From NCBI RefSeq assembly GCF_900215605.1, contig NZ_OBEL01000001.1, positions 434,001 through 498,000 on the forward strand: DNA of 64,000 nt, given 5' to 3'. The translations under genes were made by a program, and so were the position numbers. Under the pieces are notes generated by a model, which was not told the origin of the DNA, did no database searches, and was given only the letters and a program-made list of their open reading frames with translations. Shown here piece by piece: positions 14,453 through 44,509 of this stretch (within the stretch, counting starts at the first letter, position 1; every line of letters begins with the position of its first letter). The DNA is from Cohaesibacter gelatinilyticus (GTDB lineage: Bacteria > Pseudomonadota > Alphaproteobacteria > Rhizobiales > Cohaesibacteraceae).

Positions 14453-16630
<2,178 letters not shown>

Positions 16631-21863: not shown

Positions 21864-22685
21864 TTAATTTGAAGTGCCGTTTGGTGGAACTGGACATGAC
21901 CGCCCTTCTTCCCGAAGGTTTACCTGAATTGGCGCGTCATTGGCTTGCTTTTGTGCGACTTTACTCTGCATCACATCGGCGGTGAAACAATAGCCAATGC
22001 CATGGATGGTCTTCACATAGGTCGGATTGGCTGCATCAGGTTCAATCTTCTTGCGAAGACGCATGATATGAACATCGACGGTACGGTCACCTACATAACA
22101 TTGCCGCCCTCGTGCCAGATCCAGTAGTTGGTCCCGTGACAGGACACTATGGGGATGCTTGACCATGGCATGAAGCAACTCAAACTCGGTCGTGGTGAGA
22201 TTGACGTCTTTACCACTGATGGCATTGCGAAGTGTGCGTTCCTGAGCATTCATGACAAATTGATCGAACTGCAAGATAGGTGTGCCTTCACTGGTCTGGC
22301 GGACAGCGACATCTTCCAGGCGACAACGACGAAGAACCGTCTTGATGCGTGCCAGTAGCTCGCGAGCCTCAAAAGGTTTGGTGACATAGTCATCTGCACC
22401 AAACTCCAACCCCAAGACACGATCAAATGGATCATCGCGCCCTGAAAGTACAATGACAGGAAGGTTGGAATCCGTCCGCATGTCACGCAAAATATCGAAG
22501 CCGTCACGATCAGGAAGACCGATATCAAGGATGCAAAGATCCACAGTCTGCTGGTTCAATACTTTCGCCATTTCAGCAGCTGTGGCCGTGCAGCTCACCT
22601 GATAATGCTGCTTCTCCAAATATCTGGACAAGAAAGATGTGATCTGTGGATCATCATCCACGATCAATATATGGCCTGTTGTCAT
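21864..22685 (-). CDS. OmpR-family response regulator
   Basis: A 273-residue two-component regulator. The receiver domain has the acidic pair in IVDDDP, phospho-acceptor D54 in CILDIGLPDRDG and the conserved Lys in DDYVTKPFEARE. The C-terminal OmpR/PhoB winged helix follows (about 145-240, with TTTEFELLHAMVKHP and the late CYVGDRTVDVHIMRLRKKI). A polar tail of about 30 residues is extra. It is divergent from the hybrid histidine kinase at 22871. The kinase carries its own receiver but no histidine phosphotransfer domain, so the phosphoryl route may be direct. Control of the downstream Idr operon is inferred from linkage. Confidence 0.88.
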   Translation of the reverse strand: MTTGHILIVDDDPQITSFLSRYLEKQHYQVSCTATAAEMAKVLNQQTVDLCILDIGLPDRDGFDILRDMRTDSNLPVIVLSGRDDPFDRVLGLEFGADDYVTKPFEARELLARIKTVLRRCRLEDVAVRQTSEGTPILQFDQFVMNAQERTLRNAISGKDVNLTTTEFELLHAMVKHPHSVLSRDQLLDLARGRQCYVGDRTVDVHIMRLRKKIEPDAANPTYVKTIHGIGYCFTADVMQSKVAQKQANDAPIQVNLREEGRSCPVPPNGTSN

Positions 22686-22870
22686 GGTCGCTCTTCCCTC
22701 GGTTGAGCGGTATTTTATCAGGCGGTCTAAATTCTGACTTGATGTCGATCAACGCAAGCCGCTTGAGAGGGGATAAAATACGTCAAAAAACGTATATGGA
22801 GTGTATCATCAATCCGGTGCCGCATTTTTCCGACCATATGCACCAAGGCTCAGAAAGCGGAGAAACAATC

Positions 22871-25108
22871 ATGTTTTCGTCCTTACATCGATTTTTCTCC
22901 AAAGCCCCGGAACGTGTGGAAGGGATACCTGTAGGACTGTTTGCTGGTGGATTGCTGGCTGGCATCATTTTGACAGCATTGTTCCTGGCACTGGGAACTG
23001 TCACCCGCTTTGAGCAGATCAAGTCCGGCTGGATTTCCTTTTCGCATCAGGCCGAGGAAAAGGGCGTCTGGATTTCGCAGATTCGTGGCCATTTTGGGTA
23101 TGGGGGCATGATCCATAATTTCAAGAATTATGTATTGCGCCGTGATGATATCTATATTCAGAGTTTGCGCCAGGAATTCAAGGATCTGTATCAACCTATC
23201 GATGCCTATATTGCCTCTCATCCGTCATCCGAAGAAATCAAGGCCTTGATTGCCATCAGGCGTACAGTCAAGCGTTATGAGTTGAAAATTCCGGTGGTTC
23301 TGAAAGCCACCCAAGAGGGGTGGAATGCAGAACGGCTGGATAAAGCAGTAAAAGTCAATGACACGGCTGCGTTGCAAGGTTTGAACACATTGGAGACGAT
23401 CTGGTGGCAGGAGAGGCAAGACAATATCTCGGATCTGGTGAATGCTCTGTCGCGTGGAGAGCAGCTTACTCGTTACGCTTTCATTGGGTTGTTTGTGTTG
23501 ATCATTCTGGCGGCATTGCTGATCGGCTTGATGCATTTTCTTATTCAGCGCATCACAGCATCTGCTGATCAACTCTCAAAAGAGCTGTCAGCCCGCAGAA
23601 AGGCGCAAGAAGCAGAGAAAAAACTGCTGCGAGCGGTAGAGCAAAGTCCAACCACCATTGCCATCTCTGATACAAAGGGCAAAATCGAATATGTGAACCG
23701 CAAATTCTGCGAGCTCACGGGTTATGATCAGCAGGAATTGGTGGGACATAATCCCAATATTCTGAAATCAGGCTATACCAGCGAAGAAGCATATAAGCTT
23801 ATCTGGCAGCGGCTTAATACAGGACAGGAATGGCGCGGTATTTTCAAGAACCGAAAGAAGGATGGCTCATTTTATTGGGCTTCAACATCCATTCTGCCAC
23901 TGAAGGATGAAGATGGGAATGTCACCAACTTCATTGGGATTGGTGAGGATATCACGGAAAAAAAAGCCGCTCAGCAGCATATGGTCAAGGCCCAGAAGAT
24001 GGAGGCCGTTGGGCTTCTGGCTGGTGGAATTGCCCATGATTTCAATAATATCCTGATGGTCATTCTTGGCAATGTGCAGATTGCTTTGCTGGATGCCGAT
24101 CAGGCGGCCAATTCCGAGGAACTGGAACATATCGAAATAGCCGCCCGCCGTGCTCAGAGCCTTGTTAAACAATTGCTGACTTTTGCGCGTCGGCAGCCTG
24201 TAAGTCCCAGAAGCTTGCATCTGGGGCAGCAGATCGACGAAATTTTGGTTCTTCTGCGTGCCTCTATTGCAAATACGATCTCCTTGGGTTTTGAGCGTCT
24301 TTGCAAGCCCGGTGAATGCACGATCATGGCAGACCCGACACAGATTCATCAGATCCTGATGAATTTGTCACGCAATGCAGCTGAGGCGATTGGTGGCAAG
24401 GCAGGCTCTATCACTTTCGAGCTCTCTCGCATGACAGTGGAAGAGGAGCATGGTTTGAGCAAACTGCCAGAGCATGCCAAAGGCGTTGTAAAGCTCTCCG
24501 TAATCGATACCGGTCCCGGTATTCCAGCTCATATTGTTGAACGCGTGTTCGACCCTTTTTATTCCACCAAGCCAATTGGCAAGGGAACGGGGCTTGGCCT
24601 CTCTGTTGTTCGCTCACTGGTGGAAGACATGAATGGTCGCGTCGAGGTCGAGAATAATCCGCAAGGTGGCACGATCATGTCACTCTATTTCCCGTTGATC
24701 GAGTCAGATGATCAGGTGGAAACACAATCTGCCCAACTTGTTGGTGGTCATGAGCAGATTCTCTTGGTTGATGATGAGGAAGAGGTTCTTTTTGTCATGC
24801 GCCGCTTGCTGACCCGCCTTGGCTATCGGGTAGTGGCTTTTACATCCAGCCAAAGCGCGCTTGCAGATTTCGCCATGGATCCTCAGCGCTATCACTTGCT
24901 GCTGACCGATCTGGTGATGCCGGAATTGGGAGGGGAAGACCTCATCAAAGCGGCAAGGGCTATTCGCCCGGACCTGCCGATCATTCTTTCTACGGCCTAT
25001 ATGCAAGATAATGACAAACTGACCGATATCGAAGACCTGACCATTCTGCAAAAACCGGTCGATGTCATGGAAGTAGCCAACGCGGTTCGAGGCAAATTGG
25101 ATGGATAG
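22871..25108 (+). CDS. Membrane hybrid sensor histidine kinase (PAS-HisKA-HATPase-REC)
   Basis: A protein of about 745 residues. TM helices lie near 22-45 and 200-225 and enclose a helical periplasmic sensor domain with the motif GYGGMIHNFKNYVLR. A PAS domain (about 250-370) is followed by the kinase core with phospho-acceptor H389 in GGIAHDFNNILM, ATP-binding boxes IDTGPGIP and GKGTGLGLSVV, and a C-terminal receiver with D680 in LLLTDLVMPE. The start at 22871 follows GCGGAG; the longer frame is leader. It faces the OmpR regulator gene and lies upstream of the Idr operon on the same strand. Signal is unknown; iodate, redox state or periplasmic oxidants are candidates by context only. Confidence 0.88.
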   Translation: MFSSLHRFFSKAPERVEGIPVGLFAGGLLAGIILTALFLALGTVTRFEQIKSGWISFSHQAEEKGVWISQIRGHFGYGGMIHNFKNYVLRRDDIYIQSLRQEFKDLYQPIDAYIASHPSSEEIKALIAIRRTVKRYELKIPVVLKATQEGWNAERLDKAVKVNDTAALQGLNTLETIWWQERQDNISDLVNALSRGEQLTRYAFIGLFVLIILAALLIGLMHFLIQRITASADQLSKELSARRKAQEAEKKLLRAVEQSPTTIAISDTKGKIEYVNRKFCELTGYDQQELVGHNPNILKSGYTSEEAYKLIWQRLNTGQEWRGIFKNRKKDGSFYWASTSILPLKDEDGNVTNFIGIGEDITEKKAAQQHMVKAQKMEAVGLLAGGIAHDFNNILMVILGNVQIALLDADQAANSEELEHIEIAARRAQSLVKQLLTFARRQPVSPRSLHLGQQIDEILVLLRASIANTISLGFERLCKPGECTIMADPTQIHQILMNLSRNAAEAIGGKAGSITFELSRMTVEEEHGLSKLPEHAKGVVKLSVIDTGPGIPAHIVERVFDPFYSTKPIGKGTGLGLSVVRSLVEDMNGRVEVENNPQGGTIMSLYFPLIESDDQVETQSAQLVGGHEQILLVDDEEEVLFVMRRLLTRLGYRVVAFTSSQSALADFAMDPQRYHLLLTDLVMPELGGEDLIKAARAIRPDLPIILSTAYMQDNDKLTDIEDLTILQKPVDVMEVANAVRGKLDG

Positions 25109-25588: not shown

Positions 25589-26704
25589 ATGACGAAACAG
25601 TATACTGCAAGGATTGGTCTTCTCTCCGCAGTTTCTGCCATGGCAATGGGCGTTGCTTTTGTGGCAGGACCAGCGGTTGCGGCTGATCCGGGCCCTGTAC
25701 CCACAATCAAGGTAGACGCCAAGAAGGCGGCGCTTGGGAAACGGCTTTTCTTTGATCCGCGTTTGTCTGGCGATGCGGAACTTTCCTGCTCCAGCTGTCA
25801 CGATCCGGAAAAAGGCTTCACCGATGGTGAAGCGCTTTCTTCCGCCTATGCAGGCAGCAACGGCTTCCGCAATGTACCAACGCTGATCAATACAGCACAT
25901 AAAGCGGCCTGGTTCCATGATGGCCGTGTCGGGACCAATCTGAACGATATCACCCGTGAGTCCATTACGGAAACCTACAACATGAATATGGACATGCGCC
26001 TGATGCAGGAACGCATCAAGCAGGATCCGGTTTATGTGAAAATGTTCAAGGATGCCGGTTACGGAGAGCCATCCAACGGTTCGGTTCGCAAAGCCATTCC
26101 GGAATATCTGAAAACTCTGACTTCCCGAGGTTCCCCTTATGACAAGGGTGAAATGAGCGAGCAGGCGAAAGCTGGTTTTGAGCTGTTCAAAGGTAAAGCA
26201 GGCTGCATCTCCTGTCACTCCGGTGATCGCTTCACCGACGACAAGCCGCACAAACTTGGCGTGCCGAACAATCCAGCCATCTGGAATGAACCCGAGCGCC
26301 ATATCACCTTCGTGACCTTTGCAAAATTCCAGGGCTTGGAAAATTACATGAATCTGCGTCAGGACCCTGGTGCCTACATCCGTTATCACGACGAGACGTT
26401 GATGCCTATGGGGTCCTTCATGACACCGACTTTGCGTGAGCTGAAGCAGACTGGCCCTTACATGCATAATGGCATGTTCGACAGTTTGTTTGAGGTCGTC
26501 AATTTCTATGATCAGGGTGGCGGTCAGGACAAAGACAAAGATCCTGCACTTAAGCCTCTCGGCCTGTCCTTCGATGAAAAGAACCAGTTGGTCGCTTTCC
26601 TGGAAAGCCTGTCTGGTGACGTTCTGAACGGCAAAGACTTCGTGCCAGAAGAAATCGATACCGAATACACGGTGATTGATGACTGGCGTAAAGCGAAAAA
26701 CTAG
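25589..26704 (+). CDS. Di-heme cytochrome c peroxidase, IdrP-type (first copy)
   Basis: A 371-residue periplasmic di-heme protein of the CCP/MauG family. Residues 1-31 form a signal peptide ending AVA. The two c-type haem sites are CSSCH (67-71) and CISCH (206-210). The late segment GPYMHNGMFDSLFEVVNFYD is the conserved distal portion of bacterial peroxidases. It is the first gene of a tight four-gene operon (14, 13 and 14 bases between genes). In iodate reductase clusters two such peroxidases (IdrP1, IdrP2) accompany IdrAB and are thought to remove hydrogen peroxide formed in iodate reduction. Which of the two this is cannot be decided from sequence alone. The ATG follows AGAGGA. Confidence 0.88.
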   Translation: MTKQYTARIGLLSAVSAMAMGVAFVAGPAVAADPGPVPTIKVDAKKAALGKRLFFDPRLSGDAELSCSSCHDPEKGFTDGEALSSAYAGSNGFRNVPTLINTAHKAAWFHDGRVGTNLNDITRESITETYNMNMDMRLMQERIKQDPVYVKMFKDAGYGEPSNGSVRKAIPEYLKTLTSRGSPYDKGEMSEQAKAGFELFKGKAGCISCHSGDRFTDDKPHKLGVPNNPAIWNEPERHITFVTFAKFQGLENYMNLRQDPGAYIRYHDETLMPMGSFMTPTLRELKQTGPYMHNGMFDSLFEVVNFYDQGGGQDKDKDPALKPLGLSFDEKNQLVAFLESLSGDVLNGKDFVPEEIDTEYTVIDDWRKAKN

Positions 26705-26718
26705 GGGGCACGAATAAG

Positions 26719-27954
26719 ATGAAAGCGAAATCAAATCTGTTCGCATCCGTCGCCACCCTTGCAAGTGTAGCGACACTCACACTCGGTTCTGCCTTTGCTG
26801 GTGAGGTAGCCCCTCCAAGCATCGAAGAACTGCTGAAGCCTTTCGACAAGCCTTCCATGAAAATTGAAAGCGCGATCAAAGGCGGCGACCCTGACCCGGA
26901 TCCGGCATTGGAAGCTCTCGGTCCTCCACCAATCCCTGCGGACAATAAAATGACCGCCGAGAAAGTGGAATTGGGCAAGAAGTTGTTCTTCGATCCACGT
27001 CTGGGTGGCAACCCATCCACTCCATGTTCCGCATGTCACCTTCCAGAGGTTGGCTGGGACGTAGAGGACAAGGTCTCCTTCGGTTATCCCGGTGCTGTGC
27101 ACTGGCGTAATTCTCAGACCATCGTCAACTCTGCCTATTACAGCAAGCTCTTCTGGGCTGGTTCTTCAGGCAACCTTGAAAAGCAGGCGCGTTCTGCGGC
27201 TCGTGGTGCTGTGGCTGGTAACGGCGAAGACGATATGATGGAAAGCCGTCTGGCCTTCGTTCCGGAATATCGTGAAGCCTTCAACAAGGTCTTTGGTGAT
27301 CAATGGCCACTGGTTCGCAACGCCTATCGTGCGATTGCTGCCTTTGAACGGACAATCGTTCAGCGTGACACACCATTCGATAAATATCTGCTTGGTGACA
27401 AGAGCGCTCTGGATGATAGCCAGAAACGTGGTCTGGAATTGTTCCGCGGCAAAGCTGGCTGCATGGAATGCCACAATGGCCCACTTCTATCTGATCAGAA
27501 ATACTACAATACCGGCGTACCGCCGCTGGATGAGTGGGACAATGATGCACTGAAACAGATCACGTTCCGTTTCGAGCTCTATGCGAAAGGCTCCACCGAG
27601 AAGATGTATCGTCATACCAAAGACGATCCTGGCTTCTACTTCCGGGCCAAGAACAAGAAAGACAAGGGCAAGTTCCGTACGCCATCCCTGCGCTACACCC
27701 TCTATTCCGAGCCATACATGCATAACGGCATGATTGCGACCTTGGATGATGTGGTTGAGTTCTACAATCAGGGCGGCGGCACCAACGAATTTGCTGAAAA
27801 CAAAACCAAACTGATCAAGCCTCTAGGTCTGAGTGACAAGGAAAAAGCCGATCTGGTGAACTTCCTGAAATCTCTGTCCGGTGATGAGATCATCGTCGAG
27901 GAACCAGAGCTGCAAGACTATGCTCCGCTTCCCGCGCCAACGGCCATGAAGTGA
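26719..27954 (+). CDS. Di-heme cytochrome c peroxidase, IdrP-type (second copy)
   Basis: A 411-residue di-heme peroxidase with a signal peptide (1-28, ending AFA) and haem sites CSACH (103-107) and CMECH (248-252). It is clearly diverged from the first copy: it has an additional proline-rich stretch of about 40 residues before the first haem site (GGDPDPDPALEALGPPPIP) and an insertion between the haem sites. The conserved ERTIVQRDTPFDKYL and YMHNGMIATLDDVVEFYNQ segments are those of cytochrome c peroxidases. Its position next to the Rieske gene in the operon supports the IdrP role. Confidence 0.88.
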   Translation: MKAKSNLFASVATLASVATLTLGSAFAGEVAPPSIEELLKPFDKPSMKIESAIKGGDPDPDPALEALGPPPIPADNKMTAEKVELGKKLFFDPRLGGNPSTPCSACHLPEVGWDVEDKVSFGYPGAVHWRNSQTIVNSAYYSKLFWAGSSGNLEKQARSAARGAVAGNGEDDMMESRLAFVPEYREAFNKVFGDQWPLVRNAYRAIAAFERTIVQRDTPFDKYLLGDKSALDDSQKRGLELFRGKAGCMECHNGPLLSDQKYYNTGVPPLDEWDNDALKQITFRFELYAKGSTEKMYRHTKDDPGFYFRAKNKKDKGKFRTPSLRYTLYSEPYMHNGMIATLDDVVEFYNQGGGTNEFAENKTKLIKPLGLSDKEKADLVNFLKSLSGDEIIVEEPELQDYAPLPAPTAMK

Positions 27955-27967
27955 GGAGGACCCCATC

Positions 27968-28555
27968 ATGAATGCTCCAACTGCCATGGAAATGGAAAAA
28001 TCCCATACCTGCAGCTGTTCTGGCAAAGCCAAGAAAGCCTGCACCATGAACCGGCGTCAATTCCTGTTCGCTTCTGGTGCAACCACCTTCACCGTCATGG
28101 TCACCATGACGGCGGGCAAGGGTAAGGCAGAACAGGTGCCAGCTTTGGTATCGACCTATCCACGCAAGAAAATTGCCAAACTGTCCGAGTTGAAACAGGA
28201 CGAACCGGTGACCTTTGAATATCCTGATGAAGGCGAATATGCCAGCTCCATCCTTGTGAAAATGGGCAAGGAAGGCGGCGGCGGCGTCGGCAAGGACAAG
28301 GATATCGTAGCTTTCAACCTGACCTGTACCCACCAGGGTGGTGACATGACAGACGGCTACAAGCCAGAGCATAAAGTGCTTGGCCCATGTCCGTTGCATC
28401 TGTCCACCTACGACCTGACCCGTCACGGGATTCTGGTCTCCGGACAGGCCTATCAGTCCCTGCCTCAGGTACTGCTGGAAGTGGATGGCGATGATGTTTA
28501 TGCCGTCGGAATGTTCGGCCTGATTTATGGCCGCTATGACAACCTGATTTCTTAA
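27968..28555 (+). CDS. idrB: Rieske [2Fe-2S] subunit of iodate reductase (arsenite oxidase small-subunit family)
   Basis: A 195-residue Rieske protein of the AioB/IdrB family. The cluster ligands are C120/H122 in CTHQGGDM and C141/H144 in CPLHLSTYD; neither site has the extra Cys that makes the disulphide of bc1-type Rieske proteins. A twin-arginine motif NRRQFLFASG (RR at 29-30) directs export of the folded protein and, by analogy with AioAB, of the signal-less large subunit. The N-terminus before it is unusual: 28 residues with cysteines at 15, 17 and 25. The ATG at 27968 follows GAGGA; an internal ATG just before NRRQF is the alternative. It ends 14 bases before idrA. Confidence 0.88.
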   Translation: MNAPTAMEMEKSHTCSCSGKAKKACTMNRRQFLFASGATTFTVMVTMTAGKGKAEQVPALVSTYPRKKIAKLSELKQDEPVTFEYPDEGEYASSILVKMGKEGGGGVGKDKDIVAFNLTCTHQGGDMTDGYKPEHKVLGPCPLHLSTYDLTRHGILVSGQAYQSLPQVLLEVDGDDVYAVGMFGLIYGRYDNLIS

Positions 28556-28569
28556 AGGAGGGAGCAGTT

Positions 28570-31251
28570 ATGACAACTCCGTACTATGTTCCCGAAACCA
28601 ATGTGCCGTTGCCTCCCAAAGGGGCAGACGTTATCTCCACTGCATGTGACTATTGCATCGTAGCCTGTGGCTACAAGGTCTACCGCTGGCCAGTAACCGC
28701 CAAATCAGGTGGTACCACAGCTGACAGCAATGCGTTCAATGAAGACTTCCCTGTTGCGCCGCTTGGCCCATGGGTTGCTCCGAACCAGACCAACATTGTC
28801 ATGCATAATGGCCAGCCACATCATGTGGTTATCATTCCCGACAAGGATACCAACTTCGTCAACACTGACGGTGACAGTTCCTTGCGTGGTGGCTGTATCG
28901 CTCAAAAATGCTACAACCCGGAAACTCCGACCCGTGATCGCCTCAAAACACCAATGATGCGTATCTATGGCACACTGATGCCTGTGCCTTGGGATCTGGC
29001 TCTGGAAGTGGCTGCCGAAATCGGCAAATATGTCATCGAGAAGCATGGCACCAATTCCTATGCCGTGAAGACATTCTCCTATCAATACATGGAGAATACC
29101 TACGCCATCTCCAAATATGCCCTGCGGCACATCAAGACGGCCAACTTCACGTTCCATGATACACCATCTGACGTGACGTCCACTCCGGGATTCCGTGATG
29201 CTGGTTTCGACAATTTTGGTCCTTCTTACGAAGACTGGAAAAATGCCGAAACGCTGCTGATTTGCGGTACCGATCCCTATGAAACCAAAACCATTCTCTA
29301 TACCCAGTGGTTGATGAAGGGTATGCAGGAGCACGGCCAGAAAGAGATCTATCTCATTCCTCGTCGTTCTGCCGGTGTTGCTTACGCCGAGAAAATGGGC
29401 GGTTTGCATATCGACATTACCCCAGGGACCGACCTTCTGGTTGTCAATGCCATCGCCCGCGTCATCGTGGAGAATGGCTGGGAAGATGCCGAATGGATCA
29501 AGGACTGGGTCAACAACAAGTGGGAAAGCTCCTCAGGCTTCGGTCAGGGCACGCGGAACACGCCATGGCAATGGCGCACCACTTGGGGCAAATTCCAGAC
29601 CAAAGGGTTCGAGGACTGGAAAAAGTGGCTGCTGTCTCAGGATGAATTCAAGCCTGAAAATGCTGCTGCGATTGCTGAAATCGATGTTCAGAAGATCTAC
29701 ACTGCGGCCGAATGGATGGCCAAGCCCAAGAAAGATGGCTCCCGTCCCAAGACCTCAGTGATGATCGAGAAGGGCTTCTACTGGTCAAACAACACCGGTA
29801 ACACCCAGGCAATCTCCGCTCTCGGCATCATCGTTGGTGCTGGCGGTCGTCCAGGTCAGGTCATTGGCCGTGCAGGTGGCCACCAGCGTGGTGGTGTGAA
29901 GGGTGGTTCCTACCCTCGCAACAAGTCACCTGAGAAAGTACCTGGTCGTCGTCGTCGTGCGATGGATACTGACCGTTACCTCTTGGCTGGTCACACCCGT
30001 CTGGCTCACGTCATCGGGAACACCTGGATCCAGTCCATGTGTGGGTCCCAGCAATTGGCAGAGAAATTTGAGGAACTGACGGTGCGCAACCCGCATCAGA
30101 TCCGCTCTTTCATGAAGGAAGAGATGATTCAGGCTCTCAAGGATCGTGTCGATAGCGGTGGTATGGTTGTCTTCAATCAGGACATCTATCTGCAAGATCC
30201 GATCGGTGCCCGTTATGCCGATATCGTCTTCCCAGCCGCAACATGGGGTGAATCTGACTTCATGCGCGCCAACGGCGAACGCCGTGTGCGTCTGTATCAG
30301 AAATTCTATGATGCACCGGGCGCTGCGAAACCGGATTGGTGGATCATTGCTCAGCTTGCAAAACGCATGGGCTTTGATGGCTTCGATTGGCAAAATTCCA
30401 ACGAAGTTGCTGAAGAACTGGCGCGCTTCACCCGTGGTAGCCGCAAGGACTTCTTTGTGATCAAAACCTTGGCTCACAAGGAAGGCAAGACGCTACATCA
30501 GAAATTGGCCGAATTCGGTACAGACGGCGTGCAATGTCCTGCTATGCTTGATGACAATGACAACATCATTGAAACCAAGCGTTTGCACGATACCCAACGT
30601 GAGTTGCCTGAAATCGGTGCGGCGGGACCGAACATGCTTGGCAAGAAAGCCACGCATTTCAACAGCCAGACCGGTAAGTGCAACATTCAGAAATCCCCTT
30701 GGAATCTGTTCTCGGATTACTGGGCATGGCTGAAACCGCGCGAAGGTGAAGGCGAATTGTGGTGTACTTCCGGACGTATCAACGAACGTTGGCAGTCTGG
30801 CTTCGATGACCGTCGTCGTCCCTATATCGTTCAGCGTTGGCCTGAAAACTGGGTCGAAATCCATCCGGATGATGCGGCCGAGCGTGGCATCGAGTCTGGT
30901 GATTACGTGATGGTTTACTCCGAGCGTGTCCCTGGTCAGAAGCACACTATCGTTGGCGTGGAAGGCGATGACTTCCAATTCTCCAAACTGATGGAAAATG
31001 GCCATATCGAGCTGACCAAAGCAGCCATCACCGCCGTTGCAATGGTAACGCCTGCGATCAAGAAGGGTGTCATGTATATGGACTTCCTTCACATGTCGCA
31101 GCCTGCCAACGCACTGGAAGGCCGGGTGGTTGACTGGATCTCAGGCAACTACAACTACAAAATGGGTGTTGGCAAGATCAAGAAGCTTGGTCCAAGCCCG
31201 TACAAGACCGAATTCAGAACGATGTCTTTCGCCCCACGTGACATTGCCTGA
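28570..31251 (+). CDS. idrA: Iodate reductase large subunit, molybdopterin oxidoreductase (AioA/IdrA family)
   Basis: An 893-residue molybdenum enzyme of the DMSO-reductase superfamily, arsenite-oxidase branch. The [3Fe-4S] site is C26-x2-C29-x3-C33 in CDYCIVACGY with Ser104 exactly 70 residues after C33, the spacing known for AioA. Later molybdopterin-contacting segments include the GGHQRGGVKGGSYPR region (about 435-450), IVFPAATWGESDFMRANGE and WVEIHPDDAAERGI. It has no signal peptide, consistent with co-export with the Tat-tagged Rieske partner. Arsenite oxidase cannot be excluded from this gene alone; the two adjacent di-heme peroxidases and the lack of other aio genes favour iodate reductase. 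Confidence 0.85.
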   Translation: MTTPYYVPETNVPLPPKGADVISTACDYCIVACGYKVYRWPVTAKSGGTTADSNAFNEDFPVAPLGPWVAPNQTNIVMHNGQPHHVVIIPDKDTNFVNTDGDSSLRGGCIAQKCYNPETPTRDRLKTPMMRIYGTLMPVPWDLALEVAAEIGKYVIEKHGTNSYAVKTFSYQYMENTYAISKYALRHIKTANFTFHDTPSDVTSTPGFRDAGFDNFGPSYEDWKNAETLLICGTDPYETKTILYTQWLMKGMQEHGQKEIYLIPRRSAGVAYAEKMGGLHIDITPGTDLLVVNAIARVIVENGWEDAEWIKDWVNNKWESSSGFGQGTRNTPWQWRTTWGKFQTKGFEDWKKWLLSQDEFKPENAAAIAEIDVQKIYTAAEWMAKPKKDGSRPKTSVMIEKGFYWSNNTGNTQAISALGIIVGAGGRPGQVIGRAGGHQRGGVKGGSYPRNKSPEKVPGRRRRAMDTDRYLLAGHTRLAHVIGNTWIQSMCGSQQLAEKFEELTVRNPHQIRSFMKEEMIQALKDRVDSGGMVVFNQDIYLQDPIGARYADIVFPAATWGESDFMRANGERRVRLYQKFYDAPGAAKPDWWIIAQLAKRMGFDGFDWQNSNEVAEELARFTRGSRKDFFVIKTLAHKEGKTLHQKLAEFGTDGVQCPAMLDDNDNIIETKRLHDTQRELPEIGAAGPNMLGKKATHFNSQTGKCNIQKSPWNLFSDYWAWLKPREGEGELWCTSGRINERWQSGFDDRRRPYIVQRWPENWVEIHPDDAAERGIESGDYVMVYSERVPGQKHTIVGVEGDDFQFSKLMENGHIELTKAAITAVAMVTPAIKKGVMYMDFLHMSQPANALEGRVVDWISGNYNYKMGVGKIKKLGPSPYKTEFRTMSFAPRDIA

Positions 31252-31457: not shown

Positions 31458-33863
31458 ATGACACAAATTTCTCCTTCTTTGAATGAAAGCCTTGCTGGAT
31501 TGACCAGTGCTCCCATTGGCAAAGCCGAGACATGCCGGGTGTTGGAAGTCTTCGCACAAAGTGATTTTGATATCCTGCGCGTCAAAGCCGTTCAGGGCTT
31601 GCGCGACCTCAAGGCAACCGATTCCGTTCCTTTGCTCATACAGGCCCTGCACGATGACGATGAAGATGTCCGTGTTGACGCAGCCGAAAGTCTGGGCCTT
31701 TTGGGCGATACAAGTGCCATTCCAGCGCTGATCGAAAATCTCACCTATGATCCCTGTGCGGAAGTGAAGCAAAATGCAGTTCAGGCTTTGGGACTGTTGA
31801 ATGCCAAGGAAGCGGCACCGCTCTTGCGCCAACTCGTGATCGGTCGTGGTGAGGAAATCCAATGGGATGAAGATGAATATCACCGCGATGAATGGGATGG
31901 CTGGCTGGATATTCAGATCATGGCTATCGATGCTCTGGCCAAACTGAAAGATGTGGAAGCCATCGAGCCCATCATGCTGGCGGTCAACGATCCGGAAAAC
32001 CAGGATCTGTCCGTTCAAGCCATGAATGCCTTGGCCCAAATCGGCGATGCATCCTTGCCAAGTCTCGGAGTTTGCACACAATCTTCCAGTCGCCGCCGCC
32101 GTTTTCATGCTGTGCGCGCCTTGGCGAGCATGTCGTCGGACAAGGCTTTGGAATTGCTGGACAAGGCTTTGGATGATCCCGATCATGATATTCGTATTCT
32201 TGCCTTTGAAACGCTGTTGAGGCGCAAGCCAAGCGTCGAATTGTTCGAGCGAGCTCTGGAAGACAATTCCGATCAGGTTCGTATGGCTGCTCTTGCCAAA
32301 CTCGATCTGGATCAGATGGGTTATTTGCAACGAGCTCTTTCCGACCCAAGCCCAAAAGTGCAGCTGGCGTTGGTCAGGCGTTTGAGTGATGCACAAAGCG
32401 GCGCACCGATCACCAGCAAAGAGCAGCCTTTCTTCAAGGCGCTTTATATCCTGTTTGAGAATTCCGGAGCAGAAGTTTCTTCCAGTGCTTTGGGTGCGTT
32501 GGCGGCCTTGGCACCAGAGCTGATCAAACAGGAATTGAAGGATCTGTTTGAGCGCTCCGACATGCCAAAGGATGAGCAGGAACAGCGTCAATGGGCTGTG
32601 GTTGATGGCCTTTCCAAGCGCGATGATGTTTTTTGTCTTGAATGGCTGCAACAGGCCTGCGGCAGTGCGTCTCGCTCTGTGCGCCTGAAAGCCCTCGCTT
32701 CCATTGGTTTATTGGCTGGTAAAGACGAGCTTGATGACAAGGTCAAGGCACAGGCCTTGGCAGTGCTCATTGCCTTTGGGCGTTCAAAAAGCTTTGCTGA
32801 TGAAGAAATTGAACAGATTGATGCTGATGGTGATACCGAAAATGAAGAGGTAGAAGTGTCAACCGATCAGGAGGAGTCCGAGGAAGAAGAGGCACAGCCT
32901 GATCTGGAAGCCATGAAGGATGCAGGTCTTGATCTGGGCCATGAGAAAGACCAGTCAGAAGGTCCAACTTCGTCGCTTGGCGCAATTCTGGGGCATGAGG
33001 CGATTGCCAAGGATCTGATCGAGGAAGCTGAGGATCAAGAAGATATTGGCGAGTTGAGCCTCAATGAACAGGCCTTGTTGAATCGTGCTCGTCGCAATCT
33101 GCGTCGCCGCAAAATTGATCTGGATGGCGATGCCGAGCAGATTGAGCAGGAACTGTGTCTCACAGCCATTCACCTGATGGGTGAGCATGATTGGACCATT
33201 GGGCAACTTATGGCAATTGCGCAAAGCGAACAGGCTGACAAAGCCTTGGCGGCGCTTGAAGCCCTGACCCGGTTGGCGGATCGGTCCGTTGATGCTCTTC
33301 TGTCAGCACAGGAGATCGTGGAAGAGACTGAGGGTGAAGAAGCAGAGGAATTTGACCCAAGAACAGCAATTGAAAAAGTGGTTTTCACTGCGCTGACCTC
33401 GAGCCAAATGACTGTGCAGAAACAAGGATTACGCCTGCTCGCCAAACTGCCACAAGACAAACTGGTGCGAGGCGATGTGTTCCGCGATCTGGTCGAAAAA
33501 TGCTTGCAAGATTCGGAAAGCACGCTGCGCATTGATGCAATGCCAGCCTATCTGGTTCTGGGTGGCGATGCCAGCAGGCTGGTTTCTTACTTGCAAGATA
33601 CTTCCACCTTGGTGCGCCAAGCGACTATGCGCCTGCTCGCACAAAAGGCACCAAATCTGGCGATAGACCATATCGTAGACTTCCTGCTTGGCAATCCGGA
33701 GCAGACATTGGACTCTCTTCTGGGAGAGGAAATGATGACCAAACACCTTTCTCAACAGGAAAAACAGAGGTTGGCATCATCTTTTGCAAGCAAACTGACC
33801 AACGACAAGGCAAAGGCTGAATGGACGATTATTCTGCCTGCCATGACACAGCTTTATGCATAA
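31458..33863 (+). CDS. HEAT-repeat protein
   Basis: An 801-residue protein composed of helical HEAT repeats, seen as successive units such as VPLLIQALHDDDEDVRVDAA, IPALIENLTYDPCAEVKQNA and LDKALDDPDHDIRILAFETL. A strongly acidic linker (about 450-490, EESEEEEAQPDLE) divides it into two repeat blocks. It has no signal peptide or TM helix, so it is cytoplasmic and probably a protein-binding scaffold. It starts about 80 bases after the Idr terminator on the same strand. HEAT proteins of this kind are known near molybdenum-enzyme operons as possible assembly factors, but a link to IdrA is only inference. Confidence 0.8.
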   Translation: MTQISPSLNESLAGLTSAPIGKAETCRVLEVFAQSDFDILRVKAVQGLRDLKATDSVPLLIQALHDDDEDVRVDAAESLGLLGDTSAIPALIENLTYDPCAEVKQNAVQALGLLNAKEAAPLLRQLVIGRGEEIQWDEDEYHRDEWDGWLDIQIMAIDALAKLKDVEAIEPIMLAVNDPENQDLSVQAMNALAQIGDASLPSLGVCTQSSSRRRRFHAVRALASMSSDKALELLDKALDDPDHDIRILAFETLLRRKPSVELFERALEDNSDQVRMAALAKLDLDQMGYLQRALSDPSPKVQLALVRRLSDAQSGAPITSKEQPFFKALYILFENSGAEVSSSALGALAALAPELIKQELKDLFERSDMPKDEQEQRQWAVVDGLSKRDDVFCLEWLQQACGSASRSVRLKALASIGLLAGKDELDDKVKAQALAVLIAFGRSKSFADEEIEQIDADGDTENEEVEVSTDQEESEEEEAQPDLEAMKDAGLDLGHEKDQSEGPTSSLGAILGHEAIAKDLIEEAEDQEDIGELSLNEQALLNRARRNLRRRKIDLDGDAEQIEQELCLTAIHLMGEHDWTIGQLMAIAQSEQADKALAALEALTRLADRSVDALLSAQEIVEETEGEEAEEFDPRTAIEKVVFTALTSSQMTVQKQGLRLLAKLPQDKLVRGDVFRDLVEKCLQDSESTLRIDAMPAYLVLGGDASRLVSYLQDTSTLVRQATMRLLAQKAPNLAIDHIVDFLLGNPEQTLDSLLGEEMMTKHLSQQEKQRLASSFASKLTNDKAKAEWTIILPAMTQLYA

Positions 33864-34768: not shown

Positions 34769-34908
34769 GCTGAAGGGTTGCGACTTTTCAGTCCAAATTG
34801 ACTTGGAGCAAGTCAGAGCAGGTTCGCTTTGAGTAATGTCACTATAAGATGATTGTAATTGTCAACTTTGGAGCTCGATACCAAATTGGCAGAATAAACG
34901 AGACTGTC

Positions 34909-35514
34909 ATGCTTTTTTGTCACAAAAATGCTCGATCCCGCGCTTCCTCGGCCACCATTCCAATTGCTTGGAAAATGACCTTGATGTCGTTGCCTCTTGT
35001 TGCCTTGTTTTCCCAAACCGCACTGGCGGCAGGAAGTCAGCTGAAGGTCAGCCCCAAGCCAAAGCAGTCGCAGGAAAAGCTGGCAATCGCAACACCGACC
35101 GAAGTGATCGAAATTGATGTGGTCAATCAAATCATCGATCTCAATGCAAATTCTTCTTATGAAGCCTTTCGGTTCGAGCCTGACTATCTAAGCTTGAAGC
35201 CGGGTACTGTGGTCCGTTTCAAAGGCTCCACCGGACGTCACACAGTTAGTTCCGTGCGTGGTATGTATCCTGAAGGTGCGCGCCCGTTCGAGATTCGTGG
35301 CAAGCCTCAGATGGACGTCGCATTTGAGAAAGAAGGCGTGTACGGCATTCGCTGTCGCGTCCATGGTCGCCACGGAATGGCAATGCTGATCATTGTCGGC
35401 GATCCAAAGGTCAATCTGGATAAAGCCCGCTCTCAAAAGGTCGGCAAAAAGGAAGCTGTCAAATTCAAGCTTCTGTTTGAGCGCCTGGACAAGGAAATCG
35501 CAGCTAAAAGTTAA
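34909..35514 (+). CDS. Periplasmic pseudoazurin-like cupredoxin
   Basis: A type 1 copper protein of about 201 residues. The signal region ends ALAAG, followed by a linker of about 60 residues and the cupredoxin domain. Copper ligands are the His in STGRHTVSSV and the C-terminal triad in GIRCRVHGRHGMAM: Cys, His at +3 and Met at +8, the same spacing as pseudoazurin. The lysine-rich tail (about 30 residues) is extra. Start is uncertain: ATGs at 34849, 34909 and 34975 are in frame and none has a strong ribosome-binding site. It could carry electrons to a periplasmic reductase such as IdrAB; that is inference from proximity. Confidence 0.75.
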   Translation: MLFCHKNARSRASSATIPIAWKMTLMSLPLVALFSQTALAAGSQLKVSPKPKQSQEKLAIATPTEVIEIDVVNQIIDLNANSSYEAFRFEPDYLSLKPGTVVRFKGSTGRHTVSSVRGMYPEGARPFEIRGKPQMDVAFEKEGVYGIRCRVHGRHGMAMLIIVGDPKVNLDKARSQKVGKKEAVKFKLLFERLDKEIAAKS

Positions 35515-40592: not shown

Positions 40593-41636
40593 TCACTTTT
40601 GTGCCATGAGGCGATCAAACGCGCCACTGGAGCTGGTCTGGTAGCCATCCTCATTGCGGGTGATGAAATATGCCGCGATATTTTCCCTTTCAGCCACTGC
40701 AAGGCCTTCCTTCTCCCCCAATACCAGTAGAGCAGTCGCCAATCCGTCGGCACGCATGCCACTGTCAGCCAAGACAGTCACAGATGTGAGGTTATGGTCA
40801 ACCGGACGACCGGTGCGGGGGTCTAGTATATGGGAGAGGCGTTTCCCGCCTTTCATGACGAAATTGCGATAATCACCCGATGTTGCCATACCCATGTCTT
40901 TGACTGAAACCACAAGCTGAACGGAGCCTCCTTCAATATTCGGTTTCTCGATTCCCACGCGCCAGGATTCGCCTCGCTCATTCATGCCACGTGCAAGCAA
41001 ATCACCGCCAATTTCAATCAGGAAATTTTCAATGCCATGGCTCTCCAGCTTGCGGGCGATCAGATCGGCCCCATAGCCTTTGGCAATGGCAGAGAGGTTG
41101 ATGGTCACCGTGCCTTTGCGCTTTCTAAGAGAAGCAGATTGCATGCCATTCTGGCTGCGAAATTCCAGCAGCTCATCTTGTCCAACCTGTTTCAAAGCTT
41201 CATTCACTTCCAGATCGCCCGGCAAGCGCTCATCATCATTTGGTCCGAACCCCCAAAGATCGATGAGTGGAGCCAAGGTCACATCAAAGCGGCCGTCACT
41301 CAAATGATGAATACGCATGGCCTCGACCATCACTTCCGAGAATGGATCGGATATGTCCTGCCAACGAGTGGACGGACTGGCGTTGAAGCGGGAAAGCTCA
41401 CTCTCCTTTTCCCAATTGGAAAAGATGTTAGTGGCCTCATCAAGGCTGCTTTTGATATCGTTATATAGGCGTTCTTTGTCCACCTTGCCGCGGGCATCCA
41501 GCGCTTTGACCATGTAGGTCGTTCCCATGACCTGACCACGCAGCAAATATTGCTCGGTCTTCGGGGCGATCAGATCGCATCCAGTCAACAGCGAACCAGT
41601 TGCGAGCATCAAAAACATGGTAAGATAACGGACCAC
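40593..41636 (-). CDS. apbE: FAD:protein FMN transferase
   Basis: A 347-residue flavin transferase that attaches FMN to threonines of NqrB and NqrC. An N-terminal lipobox (GSLLTGC, C20) predicts a periplasmic lipoprotein anchored in the inner membrane, the usual ApbE location. Family motifs include GTTYMVKA, LSAIAKGYGADLIARKLE, IGGDLLARG and HILDPRTGRPVDH. Its partners are the two flavinylation sites in this window, NqrB Thr229 and NqrC Thr240. It is divergent from nqrA across a gap of 311 bases. Confidence 0.95.
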   Translation of the reverse strand: MVRYLTMFLMLATGSLLTGCDLIAPKTEQYLLRGQVMGTTYMVKALDARGKVDKERLYNDIKSSLDEATNIFSNWEKESELSRFNASPSTRWQDISDPFSEVMVEAMRIHHLSDGRFDVTLAPLIDLWGFGPNDDERLPGDLEVNEALKQVGQDELLEFRSQNGMQSASLRKRKGTVTINLSAIAKGYGADLIARKLESHGIENFLIEIGGDLLARGMNERGESWRVGIEKPNIEGGSVQLVVSVKDMGMATSGDYRNFVMKGGKRLSHILDPRTGRPVDHNLTSVTVLADSGMRADGLATALLVLGEKEGLAVAERENIAAYFITRNEDGYQTSSSGAFDRLMAQK

Positions 41637-41947: not shown

Positions 41948-43297
41948 ATGAAGCTAAAAAAGGGATTGGACCTGCCGATCACCGGCGCTCCCGTTCAGAC
42001 CATTCACGAAGGGCCCAAAATAACAAAAGTTGCTCTGAGTGGTCGGGACTTCATTGGCCTGAAACCTAAAATGATGGTCGCAGAAGGGGATAAAGTGAAA
42101 AAAGGGCAGCCGCTCTTTGTTCATAAAGAATCCCCGGATGTAAATTATGTGGCTCCGGGTGGCGGGACTATCGTGGCAGTCAATCGTGGGGCACGCCGTG
42201 TTCTTGAAACGATTGTCATTGCATTGGATGAGAGCGAAGAAGAAATCTCCTTCGAATCTTGCGATAAAGATAGTCTACATGAATTGAGCCGCAAGGCTGT
42301 TCAGCAGAGGCTCTATGAAAGTGGGCTTTGGACGTCTTTCAAGACACGCCCTTTCTCTTACGTGCCGACGCAGGATAGTGTTCCCAACTCCATTTTTGTG
42401 ACCGCAATGGATACCGATCCATTATGTGCTGACGCTGCTACCATCATCAACGAAAAGCCGGAAAGCTTTTCCGCAGGTCTTGATGTTCTCGCGCATCTGA
42501 CCGATGGCTCGGTATTTGTCTGTCACAAGCCACACGATGTCATTCCAGCGAGCACCAGCACTTCTGTTCGTCAGGAAATCTTTGATGGTCCTCATCCAGC
42601 CGGTCTTGCAGGCACCCATATCCATTTCCTGGATCCGGTGAATGCTGAGAAAACTGTCTGGTCCATTGGTTATGCTGAAGTGATTGCCATTGGCGATCTC
42701 TTCCTGTCTGGCAAGCTGAACACTGATCGGGTGATTTCACTGGCTGGCCCATTGGCCGTCAATCCACGCTTGGTTCGCACTCGCGTGGGTGCATCAACCG
42801 ATGAGTTGACTGCAGATGAGGTGGAAATCGGAATCGATTGCCGCGTGATCTCCGGTTCCATCCTGTCGGGTGTTGCTGCTCACGATCAGTTTGCTTACCT
42901 GAGCTGGTGCGCCCGTCAGATCACTTTGATCAAGGAAGATCAGGACCAGAGCATTCTCGGCTGGATCAACCCATCTCCGAAGAATTATTCCTTCCTCAAT
43001 GTGCATTTGTCCTCGCTGGTGCGTTGGAGCAAGAAGTTTCCTTTCGGCTCCAACCTCAATGGTGGACGTCGTGCCATGGTACCAATTGGCTCCTATGAGC
43101 GCGTCATTCCTATGGACATGCTGCCAACCCAGCTTCTGCGTGCGTTGCTTGTGCTTGATACCGATCAGGCTCAGTTGCTTGGTGCTCTGGAACTGGATGA
43201 GGAAGATCTCGCACTTTGCTCCTTCATCTGCCATTCCAAATATGAGTATGGCGCTGCATTGCGGGAAAGTCTCACAAAAATCGAAAAAGAGGGCTAA
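41948..43297 (+). CDS. nqrA: Na+-translocating NADH:quinone reductase subunit A
   Basis: The 449-residue peripheral, cytoplasmic subunit A of the NQR complex. It opens KLKKGLDLPITGAPVQ, the conserved NqrA start, and later has the VAPGGGTIVAVNRGARRVLE biotinyl-lipoyl-like segment and CHSKYEYGAALRESL near the end. The start follows AAGG. It is the first gene of an operon of six with tiny gaps (3 bases to nqrB). The length matches known NqrA proteins. Confidence 0.97.
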   Translation: MKLKKGLDLPITGAPVQTIHEGPKITKVALSGRDFIGLKPKMMVAEGDKVKKGQPLFVHKESPDVNYVAPGGGTIVAVNRGARRVLETIVIALDESEEEISFESCDKDSLHELSRKAVQQRLYESGLWTSFKTRPFSYVPTQDSVPNSIFVTAMDTDPLCADAATIINEKPESFSAGLDVLAHLTDGSVFVCHKPHDVIPASTSTSVRQEIFDGPHPAGLAGTHIHFLDPVNAEKTVWSIGYAEVIAIGDLFLSGKLNTDRVISLAGPLAVNPRLVRTRVGASTDELTADEVEIGIDCRVISGSILSGVAAHDQFAYLSWCARQITLIKEDQDQSILGWINPSPKNYSFLNVHLSSLVRWSKKFPFGSNLNGGRRAMVPIGSYERVIPMDMLPTQLLRALLVLDTDQAQLLGALELDEEDLALCSFICHSKYEYGAALRESLTKIEKEG

Positions 43298-43300
43298 GTC

Positions 43301-44509
43301 TTGGGTTTGCGCAATTTCTTCGACAGCATTGAGCCGCATTTCCTGAAAGGCGGCAAGCTGGAAAAGTACTTTGCCATCTATGAGATGGTTGAGTCCTTTA
43401 TCTATTCACCAAAGACCGTAACCAAGGCTGCCCCACATGCACGAGATTATATCGATCTCAAGCGTGTCATGTCTTATGTCGTGGTCGCGACGGTGCCTTG
43501 TATTCTCTGGGCGCTATATAACACCGGTTATCAGACCAACATGGCCATCGCGCAGGTAGGCTTGGAAAATGCCACCGGTTGGCGCGTATCCTTGCTGTCT
43601 GCACTGGGTGTGGGTTTCGATGCGGGCAATATCTTTGCCAATATGTTCCATGGGATGCTTTACTTCCTGCCGATCTACATCACCACCCTGGTGGTTGGCG
43701 GCATCTTCGAAGTGATCTTCGCGATTGTTCGCGGTCACGAGGTCAATGAAGGCTTCCTCGTGACGTCCATGCTCTACACATTGATCATGCCTGCCTCCAC
43801 TCCGCTTTGGATGGTTGCTCTCGGCATCATCTTCGGTGTGGTGATTGGCAAGGAAGTGTTCGGTGGGACTGGCAAGAACTTCCTCAACCCGGCTTTGACT
43901 GGTCGTGCATTCCTTTATTTTGCCTATCCGGCAGCAATGTCGGGTGACAGCATCTGGACCCCGGTTGACGGTTTCTCTGGCGCTACCGCGCTGGGTATCA
44001 CCGCAGCAGAAGGTCATGAGGCATTGGCCAAGATTGATCTGACTTGGTGGGACGCTTTCATCGGTACCATGCAGGGCTCCATGGGGGAGACATCTGCTCT
44101 GGCTTGTCTGCTTGGCGGCCTGTTCCTGATGTATACCAAGATCGCTAACTGGCGCCTGATTGCGGGCTGTCTGATCGGTATGATCGGTTTTTCCACCCTG
44201 TTGAATGTGATCGGTTCTGACACCAACCCGATGTTTGCAATGCCTTGGTATTGGCATCTGGTGCTGGGTGGCTATGCCTTCGGTCTGGTCTTCATGGTCA
44301 CCGAGCCTGTCTCTGCAGCCATGACCAACAAGGGCCGCTTGATTTATGGCATTTTGATCGGTTTCATGGTGGTGATGATCCGTGTCGTCAACCCAGCTTT
44401 CCCGGAAGGCATGATGCTGGCGATCCTGTTCGGTAATATCTTTGCGCCGCTGATTGACTATTTCGTCGTCAAGGCCAACATCGCTCGGAGGATTCGTCGC
44501 AATGCCTGA
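43301..44509 (+). CDS. nqrB: Na+-translocating NADH:quinone reductase subunit B
   Basis: A 402-residue integral membrane subunit with about ten helices, carrying a covalently bound FMN and a riboflavin site. The flavinylation motif is DGFSGATALG with Thr229. The start is TTG at 43301 (reading MGLRNFFDSIEPHF), preceded by GAGGG at good spacing; the same N-terminus is found in relatives, so the rare start codon is probably genuine. The last eight bases overlap the beginning of nqrC. Confidence 0.96.
   Translation: MGLRNFFDSIEPHFLKGGKLEKYFAIYEMVESFIYSPKTVTKAAPHARDYIDLKRVMSYVVVATVPCILWALYNTGYQTNMAIAQVGLENATGWRVSLLSALGVGFDAGNIFANMFHGMLYFLPIYITTLVVGGIFEVIFAIVRGHEVNEGFLVTSMLYTLIMPASTPLWMVALGIIFGVVIGKEVFGGTGKNFLNPALTGRAFLYFAYPAAMSGDSIWTPVDGFSGATALGITAAEGHEALAKIDLTWWDAFIGTMQGSMGETSALACLLGGLFLMYTKIANWRLIAGCLIGMIGFSTLLNVIGSDTNPMFAMPWYWHLVLGGYAFGLVFMVTEPVSAAMTNKGRLIYGILIGFMVVMIRVVNPAFPEGMMLAILFGNIFAPLIDYFVVKANIARRIRRNA

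Follow-up and report, generated by a model that had tools for sequence, protein, structure and literature searches.

A putative iodate reductase operon in Cohaesibacter gelatinilyticus and a co-occurring HEAT-repeat gene

Gene content of the idr locus

A stretch of 64,000 nucleotides from Cohaesibacter gelatinilyticus (NCBI RefSeq assembly GCF_900215605.1, contig NZ_OBEL01000001.1, positions 434,001 to 498,000 of the forward strand), designated here as the window, was shown to contain a putative iodate reductase (Idr) operon of four genes on the + strand with intergenic gaps of 14, 13 and 14 bases, followed 206 bases after idrA by a gene encoding a HEAT-repeat protein. The corresponding features, in window positions, are as follows, where signal types (Sec for the two di-heme proteins, none for IdrA and the HEAT-repeat protein) were judged by eye.

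25589-26704, + strand: idrP2, first di-heme protein, Sec-type signal, two CxxCH motifs (Pfam CCP_MauG, E 2e-39)
26719-27954, + strand: idrP1, second di-heme protein, two CxxCH motifs (Pfam CCP_MauG, E 1.2e-40)
27968-28555, + strand: idrB, Rieske [2Fe-2S] subunit exported through the twin-arginine translocation (Tat) system (TIGR02694, 120.7 bits, cut-off 95.65)
28570-31251, + strand: idrA, catalytic molybdenum-bis(pyranopterin guanine dinucleotide) (Mo-bisPGD)/[3Fe-4S] subunit without a signal peptide of its own
31458-33863, + strand: HEAT-repeat protein (working name IdrH), 801 amino acids (aa), no signal peptide, near-constant partner of idr

The initial annotation had described the first four of these genes as encoding two di-heme CxxCH proteins, a Tat-tagged Rieske protein and a molybdoenzyme resembling the arsenite oxidase (Aio) subunit AioA, separated by 13-14 bases, and this set was borne out by the open reading frames (ORFs), Pfam matches and motifs. 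Its range ended one gene early, as the HEAT gene belongs with the operon. IdrA combines an N-terminal Rieske_3 [3Fe-4S] domain with Molybdopterin and Molydop_binding domains, and carries the motif C26-x2-C29-x3-C33-x70-S104, the four residues of which are invariant in all rows with letters at these positions (89-90 of 92) on the Idr side of the alignment and in all 14 AioA-side rows. IdrB, which matches the Pfam Rieske family, possesses a twin-arginine pair at residues 29-30 (RRQF) and the cluster-binding pattern C120-x-H122 ... C141-x2-H144 (CxHx18CxxH); the RR, CxH and CxxH residues are invariant across 87 rows. The two genes directly upstream of idrBA both encode proteins resembling cytochrome c peroxidases (CCPs), each with two CxxCH motifs.

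Phylogenetic placement and gene order

Placement of the large subunit in a phylogeny had been proposed in the initial annotation. In the resulting tree (a quick search under the LG+G4 model), the window protein grouped with 91 others on the Idr side, which was defined through the gene neighbourhoods and names of the carriers and not through proven IdrA sequences; PMC8692401, for instance, lists Moritella and Vibrio among the carriers of idr. These 92 rows were separated from the 14 AioA-side rows (NT-26, pSinA, T. thermophilus HB8 and 11 alphaproteobacterial AioA-like proteins) by a branch with a Shimodaira-Hasegawa-like approximate likelihood-ratio test (SH-aLRT) support of 100, and the large subunit thus falls outside the AioA side. 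At the amino acid level, window IdrA is 27% identical to NT-26 AioA and 49% identical to the IdrA encoded by a paired-peroxidase cluster on an Azonexus plasmid.

Two alignment columns that hold Glu in all 14 AioA-side proteins were found to differ on the Idr side. At the column of NT-26 E207, which we take to match the arsenite-site Glu of the A. faecalis enzyme, the 92 Idr-side rows hold Ser (83), Ala (5), Asp (3) or Glu (1), and at the column of NT-26 E453 they hold Arg (91) or Cys (1, the Azonexus row); the window residues are S204 and R440, respectively. No arsenic or aio genes, including the regulatory genes aioX/S/R, were found among the 26 neighbouring ORFs scanned (positions 668-47813, nearly all of at least 200 aa), and no second match to IdrA at E<=1e-30 was detected elsewhere in the genome. 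The tree, the two Glu columns and the neighbouring genes agree with the earlier description of the locus as an IdrABP1P2-type cluster, and not AioAB.

Gene order was compared across 93 distinct loci, comprising the window, 19 loci from sampled genomes and 73 from a scan of named relatives (the best 80 of 403, a selection that leans to close relatives). Eight of the 101 loci had been dropped, as their C-terminal IdrA stretch was the same as that of another locus; the pair L053/L054 represents two different metagenome-assembled genomes (MAGs). Two peroxidase genes followed by idrB and idrA were present on one strand in 81 of the 93 loci, and no other order was encountered, which shows that the operon is not a chance assembly. 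In 11 of the remaining 12 loci, a contig end cuts off the sequence no more than 2.2 kb upstream of idrA; L062 represents the twelfth.

The gene order had been singled out in the initial annotation as a point of interest. An unusual order was rejected, since all 81 loci in which the four genes could be seen display the same one, and this order has also been published: idrP2, idrP1, idrB, idrA in Pseudomonas SCT, Denitromonas IR-12 and Ca. M. iodofontis 'seems characteristic' according to PMC10989891, while the two peroxidases 'always' precede idrAB according to PMC8801600. The designation 'idrABP1P2' does not reflect physical order; under the naming of PMC10989891, idrP2 comes first in the operon, followed by idrP1.

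The locus L062 (G057:C228:3000-21000) encodes an IdrA-like protein with 46% identity and a Rieske protein, with no peroxidase genes in the 7.5 kb read upstream. It forms the first, long branch on the Idr side, where its placing is unsure, and its genome, G057, has no HEAT match; L062 is a candidate transition form between Aio and Idr.

Co-occurrence of the HEAT gene with idr

The distribution of the HEAT gene was compared with that of idrA in three genome samples, and the gene was found to track Idr, not Aio. Among 61 genomes of relatives (thresholds 1e-30 for IdrA and 1e-10 for HEAT), a HEAT match was present in nine of the ten idr genomes (IdrA identity of at least 74%) and in none of the 51 others, AioA-like carriers included. 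Within the genus, the idr cluster was found in three of 18 sampled genomes, that of the window among them, all three of which carry the HEAT gene as opposed to none of the 15 others. In a sample of 385 Alphaproteobacteria (1e-60 and 1e-8), the HEAT gene was detected in 11 of 12 idr genomes (IdrA identity of at least 57%) and in two of 373 others, and in 239 Gammaproteobacteria in nine of ten idr genomes and one of 229 others. For this last sample, profiles were used (IdrA 1e-100, HEAT 1e-40), of which the HEAT profile, A2, includes idr-linked gammaproteobacterial rows. The sample centre, G463, was chosen as an idr carrier and G444 was a known carrier; excluding both, the counts are seven of eight versus one of 229.

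Fisher P values were 6e-10 (relatives), 2e-18 (class) and 2e-14 (Gammaproteobacteria), calculated without correction for kinship on samples in which genomes are related and in which the window's genome (G000) is counted in both alphaproteobacterial sets. The idr genomes without a HEAT match in the two alphaproteobacterial samples (G043 among the relatives, G119 in the class sample) each have a contig that ends inside idrA. An association with generic HEAT proteins was considered and rejected, as the two matches outside idr genomes among the 385 were 389 and 382 aa long and were without both motifs that mark the family. Furthermore, a search of 20 non-alphaproteobacterial idr genomes, including L112 and L116 as known positives, revealed full-length HEAT genes in 16, fragments or ambiguous matches in two and no match in two.

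The iodate reductase cluster itself is of a known kind, its gene order and its occurrence in this class having already been described; new here is the HEAT-repeat gene as a co-occurring partner of idr. No mention of such a partner was found in the text of PMC8692401, PMC8801600, PMC10746228, PMC10149662, PMC10989891 or PMC10100899, where it may be drawn or named in figures and supplements, which were outside the search. The word 'heat' refers in the text of PMC8692401 to heat-killed material and heats of formation, and in that of PMC8801600 to heat-killed material alone. Literature linking HEAT repeats with iodate consisted of eye or brain disease papers alone, and none was found linking HEAT repeats with a molybdoenzyme. 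As a fifth gene that marks most sampled idr carriers, the HEAT gene would offer a second diagnostic marker for metagenomes.

Location, divergence and predicted structure of the HEAT-repeat protein

Across the 93 distinct loci, the HEAT gene follows idrA on the same strand in 56 and is upstream in divergent orientation in six (hosts: Moritella, Vibrio sonorensis, Oceanospirillales/Oceanospirillaceae and Chromatiales); it was not seen in 12 loci with less than 1 kb of downstream sequence and was absent from the stretch read in 19. For 11 of these 19, a full-length HEAT gene was found elsewhere in the genome, and in L066 it is located ~14 kb away on the same contig. Fragments were found for L149 and no copy for L126 and L127 (both Vibrio) or L062, with L123, L125 and L128 being outside the genome-wide search. 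Of 14 non-adjacent copies in Gammaproteobacteria and SAR324 whose contigs were retrieved, eight are on a contig other than that of idr (told apart by length), though in draft assemblies such contigs may still be neighbours, and six are further out on the idr contig. In the window, no promoter- or terminator-like site was identified in the 206-base gap that separates the HEAT gene from idrA, a finding that weakly favours their co-transcription.

The HEAT-repeat protein diverges rapidly, with a median identity to the window copy of 24% over 50 loci, as opposed to 77% for IdrA, and its pairwise identities track those of IdrA (Spearman 0.75, compared with 0.82-0.85 for IdrA versus the other Idr proteins). 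This divergence may explain the poor conservation reported for the genes around idrABP1P2 (PMC8692401). Two motifs mark the family, WDxWxDxQ near residue 146 and S[TS]LxAI near residue 505, of which the window protein possesses both (in WDGWLDIQ and TSSLGAIL), while some idr-linked members are without one of them in the strict form scanned. Pfam matches were solely to HEAT- and ARM-like repeat families, with no catalytic domain. An AlphaFold model (27 sequences, mean predicted local distance difference test score 84.5) showed two helical solenoid blocks (residues ~20-441 and 559-800); the acidic linker between them, which holds the S[TS]LxAI motif, is poorly predicted. Among the matches listed, comparison with the PDB yielded generic solenoids (PP2A A subunit, SF3B1, importins), mostly at low template modelling (TM) scores. 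In Labrenzia sp. DG1229 (L082:10769-13146), the HEAT gene is split into overlapping ORFs of 479 and 313 aa, due to a frameshift or a sequencing error.

The role that fits best is that of a cytosolic scaffold for the maturation or quality control of IdrAB prior to Tat export, since the protein has no discernible signal peptide and no Pfam catalytic domain and follows Idr, not Aio. More tentatively, and as a proposal we would not yet lean on, most Idr systems may comprise a fifth component, i.e. a cytosolic, fast-evolving HEAT protein (WDxWxDxQ, acidic linker, S[TS]LxAI) needed to mature IdrAB, the presence of which would split Idr into a HEAT branch serving as an oxygen-limited electron sink in aerobes and an Azonexus/Thiothrix-type respiratory branch without HEAT. 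Deletion of the HEAT gene would be a means of asking how IdrAB is assembled.

Alternatively, the HEAT gene might be a passenger that moves with an idr island through linkage and has no part in iodate reduction. Its position directly downstream of idrA in 56 loci, its fast evolution and the general use of HEAT proteins as scaffolds are in keeping with this explanation. We nevertheless regard it as unlikely, because a HEAT copy is kept also when non-adjacent, as seen in the 16 of 20 genomes with full-length genes and in the 14 copies that lie off the idr contig or further out on it. It is also retained in Cohaesibacter, a genome without the cytochrome bd oxidase-like module described in the next paragraph.

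A conserved gene set was observed together with HEAT and idr genes in L217 (L217:7168-12663 and L217:16270-19698) and, in similar form, in L215, L216 and L218-L223, encoding a bd-oxidase-I-like protein, a di-cytochrome c, a cytochrome c/EB_dh protein, a 244-aa CarboxypepD_reg-like protein and a Usp/PCP_red protein. This set, seen in many hosts, may represent a dedicated quinol-to-periplasm electron path for Idr. A bd-like fragment of the module is also present in the HEAT locus (L232) of G556, a HEAT-only genome. An EB_dh match in the window's genome (G000:C1:1744478) was rejected as a counterpart of the gammaproteobacterial cytochrome c/EB_dh protein, which was not found in that stretch.

The HEAT protein might serve this membrane electron-transfer module and not IdrAB. 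In several Gammaproteobacteria (L215, L217, L219), the module separates the HEAT gene from idrP2, and its genes occur near idr in 15-17, depending on the gene, of the 51 long-flank loci (distinct loci flanked by 7 kb or more on each side). However, 29 of the 42 long-flank loci with HEAT show no bd-like gene in the stretch read, and a bd-like protein was found neither in the window's genome nor in seven of nine other idr-positive relatives, some of them incomplete, making this explanation improbable, if conceivable in other hosts.

Comparison with described iodate reducers

The alphaproteobacterial host had also been considered special in the initial annotation, a view that does not hold, as three marine Alphaproteobacteria that carry idrABP1P2, like the window (Roseovarius azorensis, Notoacmeibacter marinus and Aliiroseovarius sediminilitoris), have already been shown to reduce iodate (PMC11445184). 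According to this source, they do so when oxygen is limiting, in R. azorensis with all four idr genes being induced; idrA expression in R. azorensis responds to iodate from 0.1 µM, and anaerobic growth on iodate is absent from the three idr-bearing marine aerobes. Based on the 11 of 12 idr genomes in the class sample that carry HEAT, these three reducers would be expected to share the window's branch and the HEAT gene. The nearest named relatives of the window among the matches listed are two loci in Cohaesibacter MAGs (L073 and L074), the IdrA of which is 95% identical.

In the IdrA tree, the window belongs to a large branch of mostly Alpha- and Gammaproteobacteria, while Azonexus and Thiothrix split off earlier, as a branch of their own. 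The plasmid-borne clusters of Azonexus hydrophilus and Thiothrix subterranea (L164 and L165) resemble the window in that their large subunit falls on the Idr side and, in Azonexus, in the order of paired peroxidases, B and A; they differ from it in IdrA sequence (49% identity) and in having no HEAT match in the stretches read. The Azonexus cluster (NZ_CP151407.1) is annotated as arsenate reductase (azurin) and lies near an IS21 element.

The idr neighbourhoods of Azonexus and Thiothrix contain a sigma-54 regulator with a kinase, a c-type cytochrome and moaA. Those described for iodate respirers and close kin of these are similar: among ten idr genomes, a two-component system was present in eight, a c551-like cytochrome in five and moaA in five (PMC8801600), and atoC/atoS adjoin idr in Azoarcus DN11 (PMC10149662). 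Given this resemblance, the genetically proven iodate reductases probably sit on the Azonexus/Thiothrix branch; in Denitromonas, deletion of idrA abolishes iodate respiration (PMC8692401). Such a neighbourhood was not encountered in the window, where the regulator is of the OmpR type and no moaA was identified among the neighbours scanned.

Pseudomonas SCT, Denitromonas IR-12, Azoarcus DN11 and Aromatoleum TC-10 are described as having the same four genes as the window (PMC8692401, PMC8801600, PMC10149662, PMC10989891), in the order P2-P1-B-A where this is stated (SCT and IR-12). The DN11 proteins share with those of the window the CX2CX3CX70S motif in A and, in B, both the CXHX18CX2H motif and the Tat signal; the two di-heme proteins are likewise of the Sec type. 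As far as these descriptions allow comparison, the four clusters are accompanied by a two-component pair (in DN11 the sigma-54-type atoC with atoS) and in some cases by moaA and cytochrome c551, whereas the window has, along with an OmpR-type regulator and a hybrid kinase, genes for a HEAT-repeat and a pseudoazurin-like protein.

Functional assignment and proposed pathway

The locus very probably encodes an IdrAB iodate reductase with IdrP1 and IdrP2, belonging to the HEAT-associated branch of the family and acting through a pathway such as that outlined below. Several observations weigh against this assignment. One Idr-side row, L149, retains Glu at the E207 column, and the NCBIfam arsenite oxidase models score above cut-off for both window subunits (TIGR02693, 407 versus 359 bits for A; TIGR02694, 120.7 versus 95.65 for B), which indicates that these models do not separate Idr from Aio. 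The closest stand-ins with a matching neighbourhood, Azonexus and Thiothrix, share only 49% IdrA identity with the window, and sequence does not reveal substrate preference. In addition, no HEAT gene was detected in Vibrio splendidus or V. tasmaniensis (E<=1e-8), in the outgroup genome G057 or in G588, an idr genome with an Azonexus/Thiothrix-type IdrA (77% and 84%) and an adjoining ORF that appears MoaA-like by eye; the HEAT protein is thus not indispensable for every Idr.

It appears quite unlikely that iodate is only a side substrate of an AioA/Idr family enzyme that serves to reduce a different marine oxidant, be it bromate, hypohalite, chlorate, selenite or an organic N- or S-oxide. The window's branch is only about half identical to that with the Azonexus/Thiothrix neighbourhood, and the alphaproteobacteria tested for growth on iodate showed none (PMC11445184), but the paired peroxidases and the gene order are common to both branches, and transcription of R. 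azorensis idrA responds to 0.1 µM iodate (PMC11445184). A true arsenite oxidase AioAB flanked by two unrelated cytochrome peroxidases was rejected as very improbable: the NCBIfam scores and the 11 best solved structures for IdrA in the PDB (all AioA, AroA or arsenite oxidase) speak for such an enzyme, whereas the tree split with support of 100, the 27% identity to NT-26 AioA, the two lost Glu residues and the 26 scanned neighbours without an arsenic gene argue against it, as do the aio loci of NT-26 and pSinA (L166 and L167), which contain aioX, a kinase, aioR and cytochrome c, with no peroxidase annotated in the stretch shown. Idr and these AioAB systems are alike in family, in their [3Fe-4S] and Rieske domains, in the B-A gene order and, presumably, in Tat export through the small subunit. 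Automatic annotation would likely name the window A and B proteins 'arsenate reductase (azurin)', as was done for the Azonexus genes, and arsenic surveys can be misled by models that name Idr an arsenite oxidase.

For the IdrAB iodate reductase, the following pathway is proposed. IdrA would fold in the cytosol and acquire Mo-bisPGD and the [3Fe-4S] cluster, while the HEAT-repeat protein, also in the cytosol, would provide a scaffold on which IdrAB is assembled or quality-checked; the signal of IdrB would then carry IdrA through the Tat system. Electrons from the quinol pool would reach a small carrier (perhaps a cytochrome c or the blue copper protein whose gene is the third after idrA) and from there pass via the IdrB Rieske centre and the [3Fe-4S] cluster to Mo. 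In line with the model of PMC8692401, iodate would be reduced to hypoiodous acid, which would disproportionate to iodide and iodate, and IdrP1 and IdrP2 would deal with reactive oxidants. The signal types make periplasmic iodate reduction by this organism, as put forward in the initial annotation, a sound inference. Respiration is not implied; a role as electron sink when oxygen is limiting is no less likely for this organism, considering that the tested aerobes did not grow anaerobically on iodate (PMC11445184). Iodate reduction affects marine iodide and thereby sea-surface ozone loss (PMC11445184).

IdrP1 and IdrP2 are 35% identical to each other. The best solved relatives of IdrP2 are CCPs, and that of IdrP1 is a 'Di-heme enzyme' (PDB 6e1c, E 6e-44), which we take to be MbnH. 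The F and Y of an FYxxGG motif are invariant in all complete rows of IdrP2 (79/79) and IdrP1 (81/81), and this Tyr aligns with a CCP Met (IdrP2 versus 3o5c and 1iqc; IdrP1 versus 1nml) and, in IdrP1, with a Tyr of 6e1c. The Met at this position is the ligand of the high-potential heme in CCPs, while MauG has a Tyr there. Having Tyr where the aligned CCPs have Met, IdrP1 and IdrP2 may be di-heme enzymes of the MauG/MbnH type and not classical peroxidases.

Neighbouring genes

Three further genes near the operon encode candidate regulatory or electron-transfer proteins.

21864-22685, - strand: OmpR-type response regulator (Response_reg and Trans_reg_C), divergent from the kinase gene
22871-25108, + strand: hybrid histidine kinase (PAS, HisKA, HATPase and receiver domains), first gene upstream of idrP2, its start codon picked by eye inside ORF 22646-25108
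34849-35514, + strand: pseudoazurin-like blue copper protein (TIGR02375, 74.3 bits, below the cut-off of 109.85)

The OmpR-type protein is a candidate iodate-response regulator. A homologue lies divergently beside a kinase gene in L055, L056, L061, L073, L074, L087, L099, L104 and L132, and downstream of the pseudoazurin gene in two Ruegeria loci (L075 and L076), while a kinase homologue scoring above 800 bits occurs near idr in nine of the 51 long-flank loci. The two-component system of other idr islands has been proposed to sense iodate (PMC8801600), though the window regulator is of another type than the one described there.

Downstream of the operon, a nitroreductase-like gene precedes the pseudoazurin-like gene, the product of which is a candidate electron donor to IdrB. 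Homologues of the latter were found near idr in 13 of the 51 long-flank loci. Residues H131, C169, H172 and M177, presumably the type-1 copper ligands, are invariant in all 14 homologues found near idr.

Horizontal transfer of the operon is possible. A sharply bounded island was not seen in the window (guanine-plus-cytosine content 0.42-0.53 over 15-45 kb and 0.50-0.53 over the operon), no tRNA was detected in it, and promoter-like sites did not exceed chance expectation. Approximately 9 kb upstream of the operon, positions 14453-16630 encode a 725-aa PF00141 peroxidase, which by its length and two matches is probably a catalase-peroxidase and may help against oxidants. A gene set for a Na+-translocating NADH:quinone oxidoreductase (nqr) is located at 41948-47816, with an ApbE gene on the other strand at 40593-41636.

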